Part shown: positions 1,429-32,893 of the stretch, piece by piece
Position numbering within the stretch: position 1 is the stretch's first letter
Layout of the letters: each line of letters begins with the position of its first letter
NCBI GenBank assembly: GCA_028870115.1
Contig: JAGWQH010000066.1
Coordinates: 1-38,004, forward strand
Source of the DNA: Candidatus Methylomirabilota bacterium
GTDB taxonomy: Bacteria; Methylomirabilota; Methylomirabilia; Methylomirabilales; Methylomirabilaceae
Direction: 5' to 3'
DNA length: 38,004 nt
Translations under genes and position numbers: made by a program
The notes under the pieces: generated by a model
What the model saw: only the letters and a program-made list of their open reading frames with translations
What the model was told of the DNA's origin: nothing
The model's database searches: none

Positions 1429-2481
1429 TTATGGCGTTACCCAGATCCGGCCGTTCGGATCTTCCACGATTTCGCCGATGAGTGTGGCGGCGGGTGTCTT
1501 ATGCTCCCGCAGGCGCTGAATCAGGGCCGTAGTCCTGTCCTTCGGCACCGCGATCAGGAGGCCACCGGAGGTCTGGGCATCGCACAGGATCAGTTGGGCC
1601 TCGTTGCGAATCCCAGGATTCCACACGATGGCCCCTTGCAGTGATTCATAGTTGCGTTTTGTCCCGCCGGGACAGATCCCCTCTTGGATCAGATCCCAGG
1701 CCTCAGGGAGAATAGGGACCTTCGAAAGCGATACCCGTGCACCAACCTCGCTGCCCGCCGTCATCTCGTGGAGGTGGCCCAGCAGCCCAAAACCCGTGAC
1801 GTCTGTGCACGCGTGAGCGCCGACCGCCACCATAGCCTCCGATGCGTCTTTATTCAGTGCTGCCATCAGAGCTACAGCAGCATTAATTGTCGGTTCCGAG
1901 GCTTTGCCGCGCTTGATAGCCGTGGTGACGATTCCAATGCCGAGCGGCTTGGTCAACACCAGATCATCCCCGATGAAGGCGGTCGAGTTCTTGAAGATCT
2001 TCGCAGGATCGATCAGCCCGGTCACGACGAGCCCATATTTTGGCTCCGGGTCGTCGATACTGTGTCCTCCGATAATCGGGGCCCCGGCCTCGCGGGCCTT
2101 GTCGGCGCCGCCACGCAGGATGTCCCCCAGGATACTCAGCGGGAGCGACCCGACTGGAAAACCAATGATATTGAGGGCGAACAGTGGTATGGCGCCCATG
2201 GCGTAGATGTCGCTCAGGGAGTTGGCGGCGGCGATCAGGCCACAGCTATACGGGTCGTCCACCACGGGCGTGATGTAGTCCACGGTCTGGACGATCGCCC
2301 GCCCGCTATCCAGTTGGTAGACGGCGGCATCATCGGAGGTTTCTGCCCCGACTAGTATTCGAGGATCGCTATATTTCGGCAGTTGGCCCAGGACCTGGGC
2401 CAGATCAGCAGGGCTGATCTTGCACGCTCAGCCCGCCCCATGCGACAAAGACGTGAGTCGAATCTGTTGAGCACTCATCAT
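1429..2481 (-). CDS. selD: Selenophosphate synthetase SelD, itself a UGA-encoded selenoprotein
   Basis: SelD makes selenophosphate from selenide and ATP, the selenium donor for tRNA-Sec and selenouridine. Ordinary translation gives only a 284-residue ORF beginning at 2283 that lacks the N-terminus. Reading the same frame up to ATG 2481 gives 350 residues, the usual family length, interrupted by one TGA at 2428-2430. That TGA is codon 18 in the context SHGAG-U-ACKIS, exactly where Cys17 of E. coli SelD (GAGCGCK) sits, and is followed by the essential lysine (K21). The rest of the PurM-like fold is intact, including YITPVVDDPYSCG and the GGHSIDDPEPKYG region. AAGGGG precedes the start; a second in-frame ATG is at 2478. 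It lies 16 nt after the PAP2 gene, so it is probably the last gene of that operon. A true nonsense mutation is very unlikely given the position. Confidence 0.9.
2402..2420 (-). promoter_or_regulatory. Candidate bacterial SECIS hairpin in selD
   Basis: Seven nt after the selD UGA, the minus strand forms a perfect 8-bp stem AGAUCAGC/GCUGAUCU with a 3-nt loop. If the top pairs open, the loop is GCCCUGC, with G first. A C-G and a G-C pair can extend the base across one A-G mismatch. Position and size fit the SelB-binding hairpins placed just downstream of bacterial Sec codons. The function is inferred. Confidence 0.6.
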
Positions 2482-24855: not shown

Positions 24856-27453
24856 ATGGCCCTTATGCGATTTGATAAATTCACCTTTAAGGCGCAGGAG
24901 GCGATCCAGCAGGCCCAGAAGCTGGCCGAGGAACGGGAGCATCAGGCGATTGACGTCGAGCACCTGTTGCTGGCGCTGGTAGATCAGGCGGAAGGGGTGG
25001 TCCAGCCGATCCTGAGAAAGGTGGGGGCCGACCCCGGCCAGGTTGCCTCACGTCTCATAGAGGAACTCAAGCGGCTTCCCAGGGTTTCCGGCTTACCTCA
25101 AGGGCAGGTCCACATCACGCCGCGTCTTGAAAAGGTGCTGAGTGCCGCGCTGTCCGAGGCGGAACGCCTGAAGGATGAGTATGTCAGCACCGAGCATCTG
25201 CTTCTGGCGATCTCCGACGCTGGCGGCGGTGGTGTCGGAAAAGTTCTGCGCGAGATTGGGATTACAAAAGATAGAATCTACGCAGCCTTGCAGGAGGTCC
25301 GCGGCAGTCAGCGCGTGACCGATCAAGCCCCGGAGCAGAAGTACCAGGCACTGGAACGGTACGCCCGCGATCTGACCGATCTCGCGAGAAAGGGAAAATT
25401 GGACCCGGTCATCGGTCGAGATGATGAGATCCGTCGAGTGGTCCAGGTCCTGGCGCGTCGGACCAAAAATAACCCGGTCCTGATCGGCGAGCCGGGCGTG
25501 GGCAAGACCGCGATCGTGGAAGGGCTGGCGCAGCGGATCGTTAATGGGGATGTGCCGGAGTCGCTGAAGAATAAGCGCGTATTGGCGCTGGATATCGGCG
25601 CACTGGTGGCCGGGAGCAAGTACCGTGGCGAGTTCGAGGACCGGCTGAAGGCGGTCCTTCGCGAGGTCACCGAGCAGGAGGGGCAGATCGTCCTCTTTAT
25701 TGACGAACTGCATACCCTCGTTGGGGCCGGCGCCGCCGAAGGGGCTATGGACGCTTCGAACATGCTCAAACCGGCGCTGGCCAGAGGTGAGCTTCGGTGC
25801 GTGGGGGCCACGACACTGGACGAGTACCGCAAGCGAGTGGAGAAGGACGCCGCCCTTGAGCGGCGCTTCCAGCCGGTCGTGGTCGGCGAGCCGTCGGTAG
25901 AGGACACCATCTCGATCCTCCGCGGGCTGAAAGAGCGGTACGAGGTACACCACGGCGTGAGGATCAAAGACTCGGCGCTGGTGGCGGCTGCTATCTTGAG
26001 TAACCGGTATATCACCGACCGGTTCCTGCCGGATAAGGCGATTGACCTGATCGATGAGGCGGCGTCTCGCCTGCGGATGGAGATCGACAGTATGCCGACG
26101 GAACTGGATGAACTCAGTCGGCGAACACGACAGATCGAGGTCGAGTACCACGCCCTGAAGAAGGAGACCGATCCGGAGTCGCAGGAACGGCTCACGCGTC
26201 TGGCAGACGAACTCGCGGAGATTCGGATTAAGGAGGAACGTCTCAAGGTCCGCTGGGAGCAGGAGAAGGGATTCATCCAGAGGATCAGAAGCCTCAAGGA
26301 GCGGATCGAGGCGGCGAAGGTGCAGGAGCAGATGGCGGAGCGGCAGGGCGATCTGGGAAAGGTCGCCGAACTTCGCTATGGCCTGGTCACGTCGCTGCAA
26401 AAGGAGCTGGAAAGCGAAAAGCGCGGTCTGGAGCAGGTCCAGCAGGGTGGCGCCATGCTCAAGGAGGAGGTGGACGAGGAAGACGTTGCTCAGGTCGTCT
26501 CCAAGTGGACCGGGGTTCCGGTCTCCAGGATGCTGGAAGGCGAGACCCAGAAGCTCCTGGCCATGGAGGAGAAGCTCAGGGAGCGAGTGGTGGGGCAGTA
26601 CGAGGCGATCAGCGCCGTGAGTGACGCGATCCGTCGCGCCCGCTCGGGGCTTCAGGATCCGAATCGGCCGATCGGCTCCTTCATCTTCCTGGGACCGACC
26701 GGCGTGGGGAAGACCGAGCTGGCCAGGGCGCTAGCTGAGTTTCTGTTCGACGACGAGCGGGCGATGGTCCGCCTGGACATGAGCGAGTACATGGAGAAGC
26801 ATACCGTTTCCCGCCTCATCGGCGCGCCGCCGGGCTACGTCGGATTCGAGGAGGGTGGACAGCTCACTGAGGCCGTCCGGCGTCGCCCATATTCCGTCCT
26901 GCTCCTGGACGAGATCGAAAAGGCCCATACCGATGTCTTCAATATCCTGCTGCAGATTCTGGATGATGGACGGCTGACCGATGGGCAGGGGCGGACCGTG
27001 GACTTCAAGAACACGATCATCATCATGACCAGCAACCTGGGCAGTCAGGTTATTCAGGAATTGGGCGGCCGAGATGATGAGGAGATGCGACGACAGGTGA
27101 TGGAAGCCGTGAGAGCCCATTTTCGGCCGGAGTTCCTGAACCGGGTGGACGAGATGCTGATCTTCCACACCCTCTCGCTGGCTCAAATCAAGCAGATTGT
27201 AGAGCTTCAGCTCAAGCGGGTGGGAAAGCGCCTTGCGGAGCGCAAACTCGATCTTGAAGTGACGGAGCCGGCTAAAGAGTTCCTGGCTAAGGAAGGGTAC
27301 GATCCGGTGTTTGGGGCGCGGCCGTTGAAGCGGGCCATTCAGCGAGTGCTACTGGACCCCTTGGCCCGCCGCCTACTTGAGCATGAGTTTGCCGAAGGCG
27401 ATACCGTGAAAGTTGATGCGGCTCGCGGTGAGTTGATCCTCAGCAAGGATTAG
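24856..27453 (+). CDS. clpB: ATP-dependent disaggregase ClpB
   Basis: The 865-residue Hsp100 chaperone that, with DnaK, pulls proteins out of aggregates. All parts are present: the N-terminal Clp domain (about 1-150, [16 protein letters not shown] and DVEHLLLAL), the first AAA+ module with GEPGVGKT at about 211, the middle coiled coil (about 405-530) that marks ClpB rather than ClpA/C, and the second AAA+ module with GPTGVGKT at about 613 and the pore-loop [11 protein letters not shown]. The C-terminal domain has [11 protein letters not shown] and [17 protein letters not shown] lies four nt before ATG 24856; another in-frame ATG is at 24865. No heat-shock promoter is evident in the short gap upstream. 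Confidence 0.97.
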
Positions 27454-27497
27454 CAGAAGCGTATTGAGTGACATGCCATCGTTGCAAAAGTTCCTCG

Positions 27498-27589
27498 TGT
27501 CATTGCGAGGCGAAGCCGAAGCAATCTCACAGTCTTTCAAGACAACAGTGGTGAGATTGCCACGCTCCTGTTGGTCGCTCGCAATGGCA
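27498..27589. repeat. Palindromic intergenic repeat (REP/MITE-like)
   Basis: The 92-bp element starts TGTCATTGCGAG and ends CTCGCAATGGCA (imperfectly complementary). Inside are perfect 10-bp arms GCAATCTCAC (27521-27530) and GTGAGATTGC (27551-27560), and a smaller hairpin GTCTT-TC-AAGAC in the loop. The ATTGCGAG...GCAATCTC pattern is a widespread class of multi-copy intergenic palindromes. It lies between clpB and the selenoprotein gene and could act as a transcript-end hairpin. Confidence 0.75.
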
Positions 27590-27615
27590 ATCTAAAGGGG
27601 AGAGGTAGGGGGCAG

Positions 27616-28410
27616 ATGGCGCCGGTTGCCTACATCGAGCAGATTGGGCGACTCTACGCGAACGAGCCGCCCTACCGGTGGACGGTTAACCTGACGAGTC
27701 CGTGGACCCCAATGGTCAAGCCGGTCCGCGAGTGTCGGATCGCCTTGATCAGCTCCGGGGGGATCTACCACAAGAGCCAGGAGCCGTTCAATCCTGTCAA
27801 GAACGATTTGACGTTTCGGGAGATCCCGAAAACAGCCGATCTGGCCGACCTGAAAATCTCGCACTATTCCAAGAACGCCAGGGACGTTAAAGACCTCAAT
27901 ACGATCTTTCCCCTCGAGCGGTTCAGGGAGTTAGGGGCTCAAGGGCGCATCGGCGAGCTGGCCTCTTTCGCCTTCACCTTCATGGGACGGATCTTCACGC
28001 GGACGCGGCTCCAGAAGGAGATGGCGCCGTATCTCATCGGACGGTTGCGGGACCTCCAGGTCGATGCGGTCTTCCTGGTCCCGGTCTGACAACTGTGCCA
28101 CCAGTCCGTGGGACTGTTCGCCCGCGCCATTGAAGAGGCCGACATTCCTACCGTCATGCTGTCTGCCGCCCTTGATATCACCTCCTCCGTCAAACCGCCC
28201 CGCGCCGTCTTCGTGAACTTTCCGCTCGGTCACCAAGCCGGTAAGCCCTTTGATCCGGAGGGGCAGACCCGAATCCTGCTCGACGCGCTGCATCTGCTCG
28301 AAACGGCGACTACTCCGGGTACCCTCGTCCAGCTTCCCTACAAGTGGGACGAAAGCGATCCGCTGGATTCATGGGAAGAGGAAGAGATGCTCCATCCTTC
28401 GCTGATGTGA
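27616..28410 (+). CDS. GrdB-like selenoprotein (UxxC), read through in-frame UGA
   Basis: Normal translation breaks this gene into two ORFs in the same frame (27571-28089 and 28108-28410). Joined across the TGA at 28087-28089 they give one 264-residue protein with DAVFLVPV-U158-QLC161-HQSVG and then LFARAIEEADIPTV. This is the site and context of the redox-active UxxC of the glycine/sarcosine/betaine reductase selenoprotein B family, whose later PRAVFVNFPLGHQAGKP segment is also present. It is far shorter than true GrdB (about 430 residues), and no GrdA or GrdE gene is near, so it is probably not glycine reductase; a thiol-redox role is a guess. ATG 27616 with GGGGAG-type sequence upstream is the likely start. 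A fitting SECIS hairpin follows the UGA. A remnant of a second copy lies at 29371. Confidence 0.85.
28102..28116 (+). promoter_or_regulatory. Candidate bacterial SECIS hairpin in the GrdB-like gene
   Basis: Twelve nt after the UGA, CAGTCC-GTG-GGACTG forms a perfect 6-bp stem with a 3-nt loop whose first base is G. The loop lies 19 nt past the Sec codon. Both spacing and the loop G fit the known pattern of SelB-recognised bacterial SECIS elements. Confidence 0.65.
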
Positions 28411-28604
28411 CCCACCTTTTTCGTCTTCTTGCACCAACGCGCGCTGCGTTGATGGGACGCGGTCCGCTAGTCCAGCTAGTCGCAACCGTAAAGGATAACT
28501 CAGGCAAGAAGCTCATTTTTATGCTGGGGAATTCTATCGTTTGCATTCCCGATATGTGGTATGAAGTAAGTGAAATGAGTGCCCGACACAAGCAGGAGTG
28601 TAGC

Positions 28605-28931
28605 GTGCCACCTGTCCTGGTAGCCTTGGACCCCGTGGTACAAGCCTTCGCGTCTGAACTGCGTGCCCGACTCCGTCACCGCATCCGCCGGATCGTACTC
28701 TTCGGATCGAGGGCCAGAGGTGAGGCTCGTGACGATTCAGACTACGATATCCTGGTGGTTGTGGACCAACGGAGTCCAGAAGTTCGCCCTCTCATCCTTG
28801 AGATTGAAACCGCATTGCTGGACGACTACGGGGCGCTGGTCGCCACAGTCCTACGTACGGAGGCGGAATGGGACCGCGCTCAAGGACTGCCGCTGGCCCG
28901 CAATGTCGCCCTGGAGGGAATAACCGTATGA
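28605..28931 (+). CDS. MNT-type nucleotidyltransferase (antitoxin of MNT/HEPN pair)
   Basis: A 108-residue minimal nucleotidyltransferase. The GSx10DxD catalytic motif is exact: G34-S35 (LFGSRARGEARDDSDYDILV) with D46 and D48. In MntA-type antitoxins this fold transfers AMP to the partner HEPN toxin and silences it. GTG 28605 is preferred because AGGAG lies six nt upstream; ATG 28575 in the same frame has only a weak site. It overlaps the HEPN gene by ATGA, with the usual two-gene order. Note that the longer frame that starts at 28344 runs through the end of the selenoprotein gene and is not real. Confidence 0.82.
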   Translation: MPPVLVALDPVVQAFASELRARLRHRIRRIVLFGSRARGEARDDSDYDILVVVDQRSPEVRPLILEIETALLDDYGALVATVLRTEAEWDRAQGLPLARNVALEGITV

Positions 28932-29317
28932 AGGCTGAACTGGCCACCCTCCTGGCCCAGGCGGAGGAGAAACTGCGAGCGGCTAAGCTGCTCTTGCAAG
29001 GGAGGGCATGGGGTGATGCCTCTTCCAGGGCCTACTACGCAGCGTTTCACGCGGTGAGCGCCGCGCTCCTGTCCAAAGAGGAGACATACTCAAGTCACGC
29101 GCAAGTGCTTGGCCGATTCAACAAAGCGTTTGTTCATCAGGGGGTGTTCCCAAAAGAGTTCACGACGTTGCTCACCCGGCTTTACGAAGACCGGCAAGCA
29201 GGCGATTACGAGACCGCCCTGGGCGTAACAGAAGAGGATGCCACACGAGACGTTGCGGATGCCCAACGCATTCTGGAGGCGGTGCGCCAGTTCCTCTCTT
29301 CCCAGGAACCGGGGTGA
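28928..29317 (+). CDS. HEPN-domain protein (toxin of MNT/HEPN pair)
   Basis: A 129-residue, fully helical HEPN protein of the UPF0332-like group. The conserved SSRAYYAAFHAVSAALL block contains R34 and H41 in the R-x6-H spacing of HEPN ribonuclease active sites. It begins at ATG 28928, which overlaps the stop of the nucleotidyltransferase gene, so the pair is translationally coupled as in known HEPN/MNT toxin-antitoxin modules. Activity as an RNase toxin is inferred from the family. The pair stands between the selenoprotein gene and a relic of its 3' end. Confidence 0.8.
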   Translation: MKAELATLLAQAEEKLRAAKLLLQGRAWGDASSRAYYAAFHAVSAALLSKEETYSSHAQVLGRFNKAFVHQGVFPKEFTTLLTRLYEDRQAGDYETALGVTEEDATRDVADAQRILEAVRQFLSSQEPG

Positions 29318-29370: not shown

Positions 29371-29465
29371 GACTCGTCTATTCAGCTTCCCTACAAGTGG
29401 GGCGAGTGCGATCCACTGGACTCGTGGGAAGAGGAAGAGATGCTTCACCCGTCGTTGTTGTAACC
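29371..29465 (+). pseudogene. 3' relic of a second GrdB-like selenoprotein gene
   Basis: The codons from 29380 read IQLPYKWGECDPLDSWEEEE and MLHPSLL, then stop. This is nearly the same as the end of the gene at 27616 (VQLPYKWDESDPLDSWEEEE, MLHPSLM). DNA similarity continues a little upstream with small indels and past the stop (acccacct). No start or body of the gene remains; the HEPN gene is directly upstream. It is therefore the tail of a lost paralogue, or a duplicate made when the toxin-antitoxin pair entered. Confidence 0.75.
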
Positions 29466-29474
29466 CACCTAGAA

Positions 29475-30350
29475 TTAGATCAGCCGGCTTCTGAGGTAGG
29501 CGCTGAGGGAATCGACGGCCGTGACGATCAGGTAGATTGCGAAAATCAAGGTCAACAGCCGGTGCTCTAAGAAGAGGCTGATGGCGATCTGGATCTGTTG
29601 GCCCAGTCCCCCGGCCCCCACGTACCCGAGGATCACCGCCTCTCGGATGTTCACCTCCCAGCGGTACAGGGTGTAGGCGACGCATTCCGGCAGAACCTGG
29701 GGGAGGATGCCGTAGAACAGAATCTGCAGTCGGCTGGCGCCGGTCGCCTGTAACGCCTCAATTGGCTGGATTTCGACGTTTTCCATCACCTCTCCAAACA
29801 GCCTCCCCAGGACGCCGCCCGTATGAATTCCCAGAGCGAGCATCCCTGGGAATGGGCCGAGGCCGATTGCGAAGACCAGGATCAGCGCCCAGACAAGATG
29901 GGGGATGGTTCGAAGGAGATTAAGAGCGGCCTTGGCACTGAGGTACAGGATGGTCCGGAGCGCTCGAGCCCACGGACGGTGCCGCTCCATCTCAAATAGC
30001 AGCCCGGTGAACATAAGATTACGACTGGAGAAAAAGACCAGGCCGAAAGCGATCACGATCGCTAGGATCGTCCCGAGAAACGACATGGCGAAGGTCTCGA
30101 GAATCCAGTAGCCGGCCTTAAGCAGGAAGTCTTTGGATAGATCAGGCGGAAAGAGCTTCTTGGTGTAGGTCAGGATCTGGACTGCACTCTCGCCGCCTAG
30201 AAGGCCGCGTAGCGAGAACTCCGTTCCCACATAGCTCCAGACTATGAGGGCGAGGAAGCCTGCCAGGAATATCAGATTGGGGGTGGAGAGAAGATCGCGC
30301 CTCTTCGCTTCCGCAAGAGCCGAGGCCTGCGTAGGAGTGTGTGCCATCAA
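29475..30350 (-). CDS. ABC transporter permease, PhnE type (second permease)
   Basis: A 291-residue inner-membrane permease with about six helices. It carries the PhnE-type EAA loop EALQATGASRLQILFYGILP and the preceding GRLFGEVMENVEIQP, with AHTPTQASALAEAKRRDLLS as cytoplasmic N-terminus. It begins at ATG 30350, overlapping the stop of the other permease by ATGA, so both are made from one message and probably form a heterodimer. It is the last gene of the importer operon and converges with the selenoprotein relic. The homologous family includes phosphonate, phosphite and proposed selenate importers; the substrate is decided by the binding protein. Confidence 0.85.
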   Translation of the reverse strand: MMAHTPTQASALAEAKRRDLLSTPNLIFLAGFLALIVWSYVGTEFSLRGLLGGESAVQILTYTKKLFPPDLSKDFLLKAGYWILETFAMSFLGTILAIVIAFGLVFFSSRNLMFTGLLFEMERHRPWARALRTILYLSAKAALNLLRTIPHLVWALILVFAIGLGPFPGMLALGIHTGGVLGRLFGEVMENVEIQPIEALQATGASRLQILFYGILPQVLPECVAYTLYRWEVNIREAVILGYVGAGGLGQQIQIAISLFLEHRLLTLIFAIYLIVTAVDSLSAYLRSRLI

Positions 30351-31234
30351 CCGCGCTCCCGGCCAAGAATCGCGCCTCTCACCCTCGCGCTCAAGGCATC
30401 AACCCCCGCCACCATCACGAACAGGATGGCGATCAGGGTGGTGACCTGGTTAAAATTAAACATCCGCATTGAGATCTCAAGCTGCTGGCCGATCCCCCCC
30501 GCACCCACGAAACCCAAAATCGCCGATGCTCGAATAGCACACTCCCAACGATACAGGGTGTAGGACACCAGATTCGGCAAGGACTGTGGCAACAGGCCAT
30601 AGAGAAGGATGGTGAGCCGCGAGGCCCCAGTCGCCTGGAGCGCTTCCAGAGGCCCAGGATTCACATGCTCCAGGATCTCCGAGTAGACCTTCCCCAGCAT
30701 TCCCGCGTAGGAGATCGCAATGGCCAGGACACCGGGGAACGGTCCCAGTCCGACGGCTCGGACAAACATGAAGGCCCACACGAATTCAGGGATGGTCCGG
30801 AATAGGCTGAGGAGCGCCCTGGCCAGCAAATATGATCCCCTGTGGAGCATTGCTCGCGGGCGAGAGCCGGCCAGCTCTCGTTCGTACAGAATGCCTTTGA
30901 AGGTGAGCGAGCTTGTGGCAAGGAGGCCAAGGGGAAAGCCGAGGACTACGGCGATGACGGTTCCCATCAGGGAGATCTGAATAGTTTCCAGGATCGGGCG
31001 ACCCAGCAGACTCAGGAAGTTCCAGGATAGGTCTGGAGGGAACATGCCCATGACGAACTTCCAGATGTTCCGGCGTCCCTCAGACTCGAAGAGCAGCAGT
31101 GGCTTCACCTGGGCAAGCTTATAGCTTCCCAGGAACGTCAGAACAAACAGGACGGAACAGACGATCTGGAAGGTAGAGAAGCGCCTAGCTGGTAAGGTGA
31201 GGCTGGCAGGAGTAGAGGGAACGTTGCTCTGCAC
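30347..31234 (-). CDS. ABC transporter permease, PhnE type (first permease)
   Basis: A 295-residue membrane permease paralogous to the next gene, with the EAA loop EALQATGASRLTILLYGLLP and GKVYSEILEHVNPGP before it. The frame is open up to ATG 31300, but that start has no ribosome site and would overlap the ATPase gene by 116 nt. GTG 31234, with GAGGAGG nine nt upstream, is preferred; the overlap is then 50 nt. Two permease genes in one operon is a frequent arrangement in this transporter family. Confidence 0.85.
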   Translation of the reverse strand: MQSNVPSTPASLTLPARRFSTFQIVCSVLFVLTFLGSYKLAQVKPLLLFESEGRRNIWKFVMGMFPPDLSWNFLSLLGRPILETIQISLMGTVIAVVLGFPLGLLATSSLTFKGILYERELAGSRPRAMLHRGSYLLARALLSLFRTIPEFVWAFMFVRAVGLGPFPGVLAIAISYAGMLGKVYSEILEHVNPGPLEALQATGASRLTILLYGLLPQSLPNLVSYTLYRWECAIRASAILGFVGAGGIGQQLEISMRMFNFNQVTTLIAILFVMVAGVDALSARVRGAILGRERG

Positions 31235-32003
31235 GGATGGGGGCCTCCTCTTCGGCTGCCTCGGTCTGACTTCCGGCGTATAGCGCTGCCAGATGGTCAT
31301 CTGTCACCGCTGGGGCGGCCAGATCGAACGACGTCTTTCCATCCTTTAGCCCGATCACTCGGGGGAAATGGGCCAGCGCCAGATCAACACTGTGGAGGTT
31401 CATGATGAGGGTTTTGCGGGTCGTCTGGCTCAGCTCGATCAGCAACTTGACGATTCCGGCGGCCAGTGCGGGATCCACTGAAGAGACCGGCTCGTCGGCC
31501 AGGATCACCTCTGGATTCTGTACCAGCAGGCGGGCAATGGCGACCCGCTGCTGCTGGCCGCCTGACAGGGTCTCGGTCCTGTCGTACAGCTTGTCGGCGA
31601 TGCCGACCTGTCTGAGCGCTGTAGAGGCGAGATTGACCTCCGTCGGTCGGATCAGGGATCGCACTGCCTGCCAGATTGGCCAAGTCCCGAGTTTGCCAGC
31701 AAGCACATTGTGAATAACCTGCAAGCGAGGGATCAGATTGTGTTGCTGGTAGATCGTTCCGATCCGGCGTCGGACCTCTCGCAACCGCCGTCCGGACAAG
31801 TGGCTGATGTCCAGTCCATCGAACGACAGGCTGCCAGAGGTTGGAGGGATCGTGAGATTCAACATCCGGAACAGGGTCGTCTTGCCGGCCCCGCTTGGGC
31901 CGATCAAGGCCACCCGCTCGCCCTGGTGGATCTTCAGATCAAGCTCGTCTACGGCGACGATCCGGCCGGCGAATACCTTGGAGACTCGATCAAGCAGATA
32001 CAT
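31185..32003 (-). CDS. ABC transporter ATP-binding protein, PhnC type
   Basis: A 272-residue ATPase that powers the importer. Walker A is GPSGAGKT (residues 35-42), the Q-loop is IYQQHNLIPRL, the signature is LSGGQQQR (146 onward) and Walker B is VILADEPVSSVDP (D170-E171). The sequence around the Q-loop is typical of PhnC. The C-terminus extends about 30 residues past the core, into the region that overlaps the first permease gene. The ATG lies 14 nt after the binding-protein gene. Confidence 0.9.
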   Translation of the reverse strand: MYLLDRVSKVFAGRIVAVDELDLKIHQGERVALIGPSGAGKTTLFRMLNLTIPPTSGSLSFDGLDISHLSGRRLREVRRRIGTIYQQHNLIPRLQVIHNVLAGKLGTWPIWQAVRSLIRPTEVNLASTALRQVGIADKLYDRTETLSGGQQQRVAIARLLVQNPEVILADEPVSSVDPALAAGIVKLLIELSQTTRKTLIMNLHSVDLALAHFPRVIGLKDGKTSFDLAAPAVTDDHLAALYAGSQTEAAEEEAPIRAEQRSLYSCQPHLTS

Positions 32004-32017
32004 GAGTTCCCATGGCG

Positions 32018-32893
32018 CTACTGAAGCAGCCCGGCGGCGATCGCTGCCTCTTCGGCCGGCTTGAACTGCTCGACCTTGACGCGGACGTATCCCTTCGTTC
32101 GCTGAAGGTCCATCAATGTTCTATCCGCGGGATTGTTATAGTTCAGCTTGGTGAAAGCAGTGGCAATCTTTTCTACGAGGGCGCTGTCCAGATCGCCCCG
32201 TACGGTCCAGACATAGTCGATGTAAGGGGGTGTCGTCCAAAAGACCTGCACCTTGTTTGGATCGACCTTCTTGGCCTGAACGAGCTTATCCCACACCGCT
32301 TCGTTTAAGGCTCCGGCGTCCACCTTTCCGCTCTCCACCCACAAGACCGTGGCGTCATGAGCCCCGCTGAAGCTGAATTTGGCGAAGTCTTTTTCTGGGT
32401 CGATGCCTTTCTGCAGCAGGAAATAGCGTGGCATGAGGTGACCTGATGTCGAGCTGACACTTCCAAACGAGAAGGTCTTGCCCTTCAAGTCAGTCAGGGC
32501 CTTGATACCGGTTTCCGGCCTGGTGATAAATTTGCTGTGAAAGCGCAGGTCCTCCTCCCGGCTCACCACCGGAATCGCATTGCCGGTCCGCCTCCGAGCT
32601 TGGACAAAGGTGAACCCACCATACCAGACCAAGTCGAGTTTCTTGGCCGCCAGGGCTTCGACGGTCGCGGCGTAGTCCACTACGGGATAATATCTGACCG
32701 GGATGCCCAGCTCTTTACTCAGATATTCAGCGAAGGGCGCGTAGATCCGCATCAACTCAGTGGGATTCTCGTCCGGGATAGCCGAAACCCGTAGCTCCTT
32801 CGGTGTTTCAGACCAGGCAGGACTGAGTAATCCGAGGCTTACCACTATAGCTACCACACTTGATAAGCCGACATAAATCCATCGACGACCCAT
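32018..32893 (-). CDS. PhnD-like periplasmic binding protein, possibly for selenate
   Basis: A 291-residue exported binding protein with an N-terminal signal peptide (about 1-28, ending SPAWSE). The mature protein begins LRVSAIPDENPTELMRIYAP and has DYAATVEALAAKKLDLVWYG then GFTFVQARRRTG, FSFGSVSSTSGHLMPRYFL and GALNEAVWDKLV. These blocks place it in the PhnD-type family. The SAIPDExPTEL and GGFTFVQAR blocks recall the subgroup annotated as putative selenate ABC transporter binding proteins rather than phosphonate PhnD. No phn lyase genes are near, while selD and a selenoprotein gene are in this window, which fits selenium uptake. The ligand remains an inference. AGGGA precedes the ATG; it is the first gene of the operon. 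Confidence 0.8.
   Translation of the reverse strand: MGRRWIYVGLSSVVAIVVSLGLLSPAWSETPKELRVSAIPDENPTELMRIYAPFAEYLSKELGIPVRYYPVVDYAATVEALAAKKLDLVWYGGFTFVQARRRTGNAIPVVSREEDLRFHSKFITRPETGIKALTDLKGKTFSFGSVSSTSGHLMPRYFLLQKGIDPEKDFAKFSFSGAHDATVLWVESGKVDAGALNEAVWDKLVQAKKVDPNKVQVFWTTPPYIDYVWTVRGDLDSALVEKIATAFTKLNYNNPADRTLMDLQRTKGYVRVKVEQFKPAEEAAIAAGLLQ

Follow-up and report, generated by a model that had tools for sequence, protein, structure and literature searches.

A predicted PrdB-like selenoprotein of Methylomirabilota and its missing reductase partners

The window (the whole stretch of DNA analysed, 38,004 nucleotides) contains a gene for a PrdB-like protein (27616..28410, forward strand; 264 codons and a TGA stop) that, judging from comparative sequence data, almost certainly encodes a selenoprotein, with the in-frame TGA at 28087..28089 specifying selenocysteine 158 (Sec158). 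The protein very probably does not act as a subunit of a D-proline or glycine reductase. On balance, the whole set of observations is best explained by a stand-alone, partner-free selenol/thiol reductase or peroxidase that would use a U-x-x-C site and be recycled by dithiols.

Gene structure and decoding of the internal UGA

In the window sequence, the frame from ATG 27616 to TGA 28410 is interrupted solely by TGA 28087. The standard ORF list splits the gene into 27571..28089 and 28108..28410. The initial annotation had joined both ORFs into one 264-residue protein across the TGA, and its frame, coordinates, length and U-Q-L-C motif prove exact. The motif (Sec158 and Cys161; codons 28087..28098, forward strand) is supported by invariant alignment columns and by the AlphaFold model. 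A purine-rich stretch (gagaggtagggggcag, 27600..27615, same strand) before the ATG may represent a ribosome binding site. The intergenic region 5' of the gene (27475-27600) has the look of an inverted repeat (tcattgcgaggcgaagccgaagcaatct ... agattgccacgctcctgttggtcgctcgcaatg), possibly a dispersed one.

Homologues at E<=1e-20 are found in 67 of the 95 genomes of the phylum, with exactly one in-frame TGA in each match listed. The TGA occupies the identical site in every phylum homologue whose position was inspected, and TAA or TAG never stands there. In 80 homologues from Alpha- and Gammaproteobacteria, Sec is replaced by Cys (TGC or TGT) within the motif C-P-V-C-H-Q-T/S; the scan outside the phylum used a Cys pattern, by which Sec forms could not be found there. 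The window UGA also lines up with the TGA found in genuine PrdB genes from Terrisporobacter, Peptoclostridium, Acetoanaerobium, Enterococcus and Ligilactobacillus. The check proposed at the outset, for homologues with U or C at residue 158, thus returned Sec within the phylum and Cys in Proteobacteria, and the UGA is aligned with Cys or a known Sec, as required of a bacterial selenoprotein. Among 11 members of the genus, the median dN/dS is 0.12 before the UGA and 0.08 after it; the low value after the UGA indicates that the 3' half is a translated and constrained part of the protein.

The genome encodes tRNA-Sec (65.9 bits, cut-off 47), SelB (385.8 bits, cut-off 242) and SelA (596 bits, cut-off 268), the three components whose absence would have spoken against the initial annotation; together with selD, the set of selA, selB, selC and selD expected of a selenoprotein-producing bacterium is complete. 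The selD gene is located in the window itself (1429..2481, reverse strand) and carries its own in-frame TGA (2430-2428; Sec18 in GAG-U-ACK). With this TGA read through, it matches TIGR00476 with 402 bits versus 125, while in the standard ORF list it is truncated at 2283.

A bacterial SECIS-type hairpin, CAGUCC-GUG-GGACUG (28102..28116, forward strand), begins 12 nt past the UGA. Its stem pairs 28102-28107 with 28111-28116 around the loop GUG (28108-28110), at a UGA-to-loop spacing of 18 nt. The hairpin had been placed exactly by the initial annotation, 12 nt after the UGA and with a loop of 3 nt whose first base is G, and it is now backed by pairing and covariation far above chance. It stays within the limits of the bacterial SECIS model in the literature (loop of 3-9 nt, G in loop position 1 or 2, spacing of 16-37 nt, MFE <= -7.5; PMC13188914), with -7.7 kcal/mol for the 22-nt element; the downstream SECIS element expected of a bacterial selenoprotein gene is thus present. 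When longer flanks of the window sequence are folded by themselves, a competing structure forms and the hairpin is not the minimum-energy one, so that the evidence for the SECIS is comparative rather than thermodynamic. All six stem pairs are present in 48 of 54 distinct UGA genes, and the loop starts with G in all 54. In the same genes 97% of stem cells are paired, versus 76 +/- 2% in synonymous-codon shuffles, and stem registers slid along the sequence yield a paired fraction of <=0.64. Covariation across 20 diverse sequences scores 0.354, versus 0.086 in shuffles (0 of 500 as high); one stem pair alternates between GC, AU and CG, and the next between UA, GC, AU and UG. The Cys homologues constitute a built-in negative control, a near-identical peptide without the stem: six stem pairs occur in one of 72 distinct sequences, and most have three or four. 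An Rfam search of the window did not match the SECIS family, a result that carries little weight for such short bacterial elements.

A pseudogene, or two separate proteins divided by a true stop, would also appear as two ORFs by standard tables. This reading is scarcely credible, as the site is always TGA or Cys in the inspected homologues and never TAA or TAG, both halves evolve under purifying selection, the SECIS covaries and the selenocysteine machinery is complete; an ordinary stop was rejected on the same UGA/Cys conservation, SECIS and dN/dS.

Family assignment and reductase partners

The protein belongs to the GRDB superfamily (PF07355; 26.6 bits, gathering threshold 22). Its best NCBIfam match is PrdB (TIGR04483, 1.2e-47) with 162.4 bits, below the equivalog cut-off of 300, while the GrdB models (TIGR01917/01918 among them) score 40-42 bits (about 1e-10) against cut-offs of 65-800. 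The PrdB model is matched by 31 of 31 members of alignment A1, in which the Sec158 and Cys161 columns are invariant. These PF07355 and PrdB matches, with the alignment to known Sec sites, place the UxxC motif where GrdB and PrdB have their Sec, as had been proposed. The label GrdB-like given at that time holds for the superfamily and the Sec site, but PrdB is the closer relative by score. In the phylogenetic tree, five genuine PrdB proteins form one clade (support 99/100); the window gene falls outside it, with its congeners and same-class relatives. A wider tree contains several Sec paralogue clades within the phylum, along with a mixed Sec/Cys clade that the phylum shares with Proteobacteria.

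Searches with PF09338 (PrdA/GrdE) and for GrdA found neither in the window genome nor in 13 of 14 congeners, extending the earlier remark that GrdA and GrdE are lacking nearby. The same searches were positive elsewhere, GrdA being found in 9 of 60 relatives and PF09338 in 10 of 60, mostly near GrdB-type matches; the PF09338 search therefore works. PrdC gave partial matches only (at most 52 bits versus a cut-off of 490, in 12 genomes). Of the attributes of PrdB, then, neither PrdA in the genome, nor a PrdC partner, nor a place in the genuine-PrdB clade was found, and the GrdA and GrdE partners that go with GrdB were likewise missing. The window genome is a draft of 122 contigs from which a partner gene might have dropped out in assembly, but the congeners, including a one-contig genome, agree. 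Absence of PrdA/GrdE, of GrdA and of a PrdC above cut-off makes the pyruvoyl-dependent D-proline reductase reaction unavailable by known means. In three loci with genuine prdB (L201, L206 and L207), prdA lies two genes upstream with a small CBO2463-type gene in between; prdD and proline racemase follow in L206 and L207, and prdC too in L206. A genuine-looking Peptoclostridium prdB has no adjoining prdA, so adjacency to prdA is no absolute rule.

A superfamily match along the length of PrdB, and a Sec site in common with genuine PrdB, would also be seen in an authentic subunit of D-proline or glycine reductase whose PrdA/GrdE partner is too diverged or unassembled to be recognized. Such a role is improbable: PF09338 is absent from the window genome and from nearly the whole genus although the search works, no PrdC exceeds its cut-off, and the gene lies outside the PrdB clade with 162 bits where 300 are needed. 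D-proline reductase was accordingly ruled out by score, by absence of PF09338 and PrdC and by tree position. With the reductase partner proteins absent from the genome, a different redox role is probable, and the poorly described one suggested by the initial annotation is plausible.

Gene neighbourhood and possible function

In the mechanism proposed for D-proline reductase, D-proline is bound by the pyruvoyl group of PrdA and attacked at its alpha carbon by the selenolate of PrdB; the resulting selenoether is resolved by a cysteine of PrdB, and PrdC re-reduces PrdB (PMC3091704). A study cited therein bears the title 'Peroxidase activity of selenoprotein GrdB'. In the AlphaFold model of the window protein (pLDDT 88.1, pTM 0.89), U-Q-L-C opens a helix after a beta strand. 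A Foldseek comparison of the predicted fold with the PDB gave no match at E<=0.001, and sequence searches of the PDB yielded none or chance-like matches only, the best being a de novo design; the predicted fold therefore gives no indication of the chemistry.

According to the favoured explanation, SelB bound to the hairpin at 28102-28116 would insert Sec at UGA 28087, for which the comparative evidence is strong. The Sec158 selenolate at the start of the helix might then attack a small electrophilic or peroxidic substrate, and Cys161 might resolve the intermediate with formation of an Se-S bond. A cellular dithiol system would recycle this bond, as suggested by PrdB chemistry and the conserved UxxC; the pyruvoyl subunit PrdA/GrdE would not be needed by this protein of the PrdB/GrdB-C superfamily. 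Retention of Sec and a resolving Cys where the partner is absent points to a partner-free selenol/thiol reductase or peroxidase, and UxxC-based chemistry of either type is given slightly better than even chances.

Neighbouring genes were called with a codon-usage caller. Wherever its context in Methylomirabilis was examined, the gene comes after clpB in the same orientation (clpB at 24856..27453, forward strand, in the window) at a distance of 9-292 nt, and glyA, nrdR and hem genes usually follow (these names were assigned by eye from the sequences). Co-production with ClpB might therefore occur in Methylomirabilis, to judge from gene order alone. The adjacency to clpB is limited to the genus; outside it the gene has other neighbours, frequently CoA-transferases. 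Cys homologues in Bradyrhizobium are located near clpA/clpS-like genes (named by eye), but the opposite orientation makes this proximity probably a coincidence, and a Clp link there was rejected. In the window, an MNT-type nucleotidyltransferase and HEPN pair (28581-29317 and 29374-29475) directly follows the selenoprotein gene in place of glyA, and is succeeded by a transporter set in reverse orientation. After the pair stands a second, diverged copy of the last ~29 codons of the selenoprotein gene; a similarly doubled 3' end occurs in another genome (G010), behind a different cassette. The 3' end of the gene therefore looks like a site of recombination or insertion.

The neighbours also bear on two further readings, both of them unlikely. 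The somewhat better placed is a catabolic role in which the enzyme would strip a leaving group from a carboxylic acid or CoA-thioester, beside a CoA-transferase step. CoA-transferase family III genes adjoin several members of the clade, and of the mixed Sec/Cys clade, outside the genus; in some cases the gap is only 15-50 bp and the operon also contains acyl-CoA ligase-like or B12-binding acyl-CoA mutase-like genes. Part of the Cys homologues have the same neighbour. The relatives outside the genus have 7-45 such CoA-transferases each, however, so that chance proximity is not to be neglected, whereas the window genome and a congener (G005) possess a single one each, placed on a different contig or at a distance of 1.7 Mb; conservation of the pathway therefore does not extend to Methylomirabilis. 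The CoA-transferase link was rejected because the family is large outside the genus and the link does not hold within it. Within the mixed clade, a CoA-transferase family III gene follows the homologue in Methylomirabilota (Sec; L080-L083) and in some Alphaproteobacteria (Cys; L114, L127 and L131).

Slightly less likely still is a part in selenium or metalloid handling (as carrier, sensor, or organoarsenical or organoselenium reductase) rather than in amino-acid metabolism. The window does contain selD and an ABC transporter (29475-32893, reverse strand) with a putative selenate-type substrate-binding protein (TIGR04553, 340 bits versus 250), a PhnC-like ATPase and two PhnE-like permeases, and a sister clade of the protein occurs within arsenosugar gene sets; but 25 kb separate selD from the gene, and in the other Methylomirabilis contexts the gene has clpB on one side and mostly glyA on the other, with neither transporter nor ars genes. 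With selD, the selenoprotein gene and the transporter, the window is rich in selenium-related genes. In L193 and L195, too, PhnE-like permeases stand before a paralogue. The sister clade (L062, L063, L064, L065, L066, L070 and L072) is accompanied by ArsS, an ArsM-like methyltransferase, a mercuric-reductase-like flavoprotein and a TIGR04283 glycosyltransferase; in L062, ArsS scores 439 bits (cut-off 300) and the glycosyltransferase 272 (cut-off 182), and an ArsM-like gene is present as well. For the sister clade, this context suggests a selenol reductase role in arsenic metabolism.

Relation to known systems

Reports of 2005 and 2008 found PrdB-like UxxC selenoproteins to be plentiful in the sea (PMC1088965, PMC2398784), and a 2026 review mentions that 63 selenoproteins were predicted for one Methylomirabilota MAG (PMC13188914). 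A literature search, with most subscription journals outside its scope, returned no account of PrdA-less PrdB-like selenoproteins in Methylomirabilota; new here are a clade that lacks PrdA and is distinct from PrdB, and a sister clade with arsenosugar genes as neighbours. These clades could belong to a PrdA-independent branch of PrdB/GrdB, with several UGA-encoded paralogue clades in Methylomirabilota (arsenosugar genes adjoin one of them, CoA-transferases adjoin others), that performs an undescribed selenol-dependent reaction, neither D-proline nor glycine reduction, and the marine 'PrdB' may be misnamed members of it; the evidence leaves this generalization evenly poised. Annotation of the window gene would lead to a pseudogene label or to an inferred D-proline or glycine reduction. 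As the pyruvoyl partner is absent from nearly the whole genus, the latter inference is unsafe, perhaps likewise for the marine 'PrdB'. If the protein works alone, Methylomirabilis and its relatives possess a selenoenzyme activity awaiting a substrate. The question is open to experiment in Rhodopseudomonas and Bradyrhizobium, which are culturable and carry Cys homologues.

The 'proline reductase PrdB' of the Sargasso Sea and GOS data shares with the window protein the UxxC motif, the UGA and the likeness to PrdB, and counts among the most abundant marine selenoprotein families (PMC1088965, PMC2398784). Those reports name it a D-proline reductase, and the likeness is one of description. Closest among characterized families is PrdB (TIGR04483), also UGA-encoded, which in C. 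sticklandii has 242 aa with Sec152, as against 436 aa with Sec350 for GrdB (PMC3091704). The 264 aa and Sec158 of the window protein are thus an ordinary PrdB size, and its description as short in the initial annotation does not hold. Both proteins have UxxC followed by H and are 35-39% identical over about residues 28-244; they differ in the motif (U-G-T-C-H-R in PrdB, U-Q-L-C-H-Q-S in the window protein), in clade, in the lack of PrdA, of a prd operon and of an over-cut-off PrdC in the window genome, and in the score below the family cut-off. With GrdB/GrdF/GrdH (PF07355, TIGR01918), the alignment covers the C-terminal half of GrdB, Sec site included, whereas the N-terminal half of the ~436-aa protein is lacking, GrdA and GrdE are missing, and the NCBIfam GrdB cut-offs are not reached; a full GrdB was ruled out by score, length and absent partners. 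The Cys-containing 'glycine/sarcosine/betaine reductase selenoprotein B family protein' of Roseomonas and Haematobacter shares the superfamily and likewise has no adjoining prd or grd genes; on a Roseomonas plasmid (L202, 5971-8356) a homologue with this annotation adjoins a gene for protein adenylyltransferase SelO. The alphaproteobacterial homologues of this kind that were compared differ from the window protein in having Cys for Sec, in mostly lacking the SECIS stem and in belonging to another clade.
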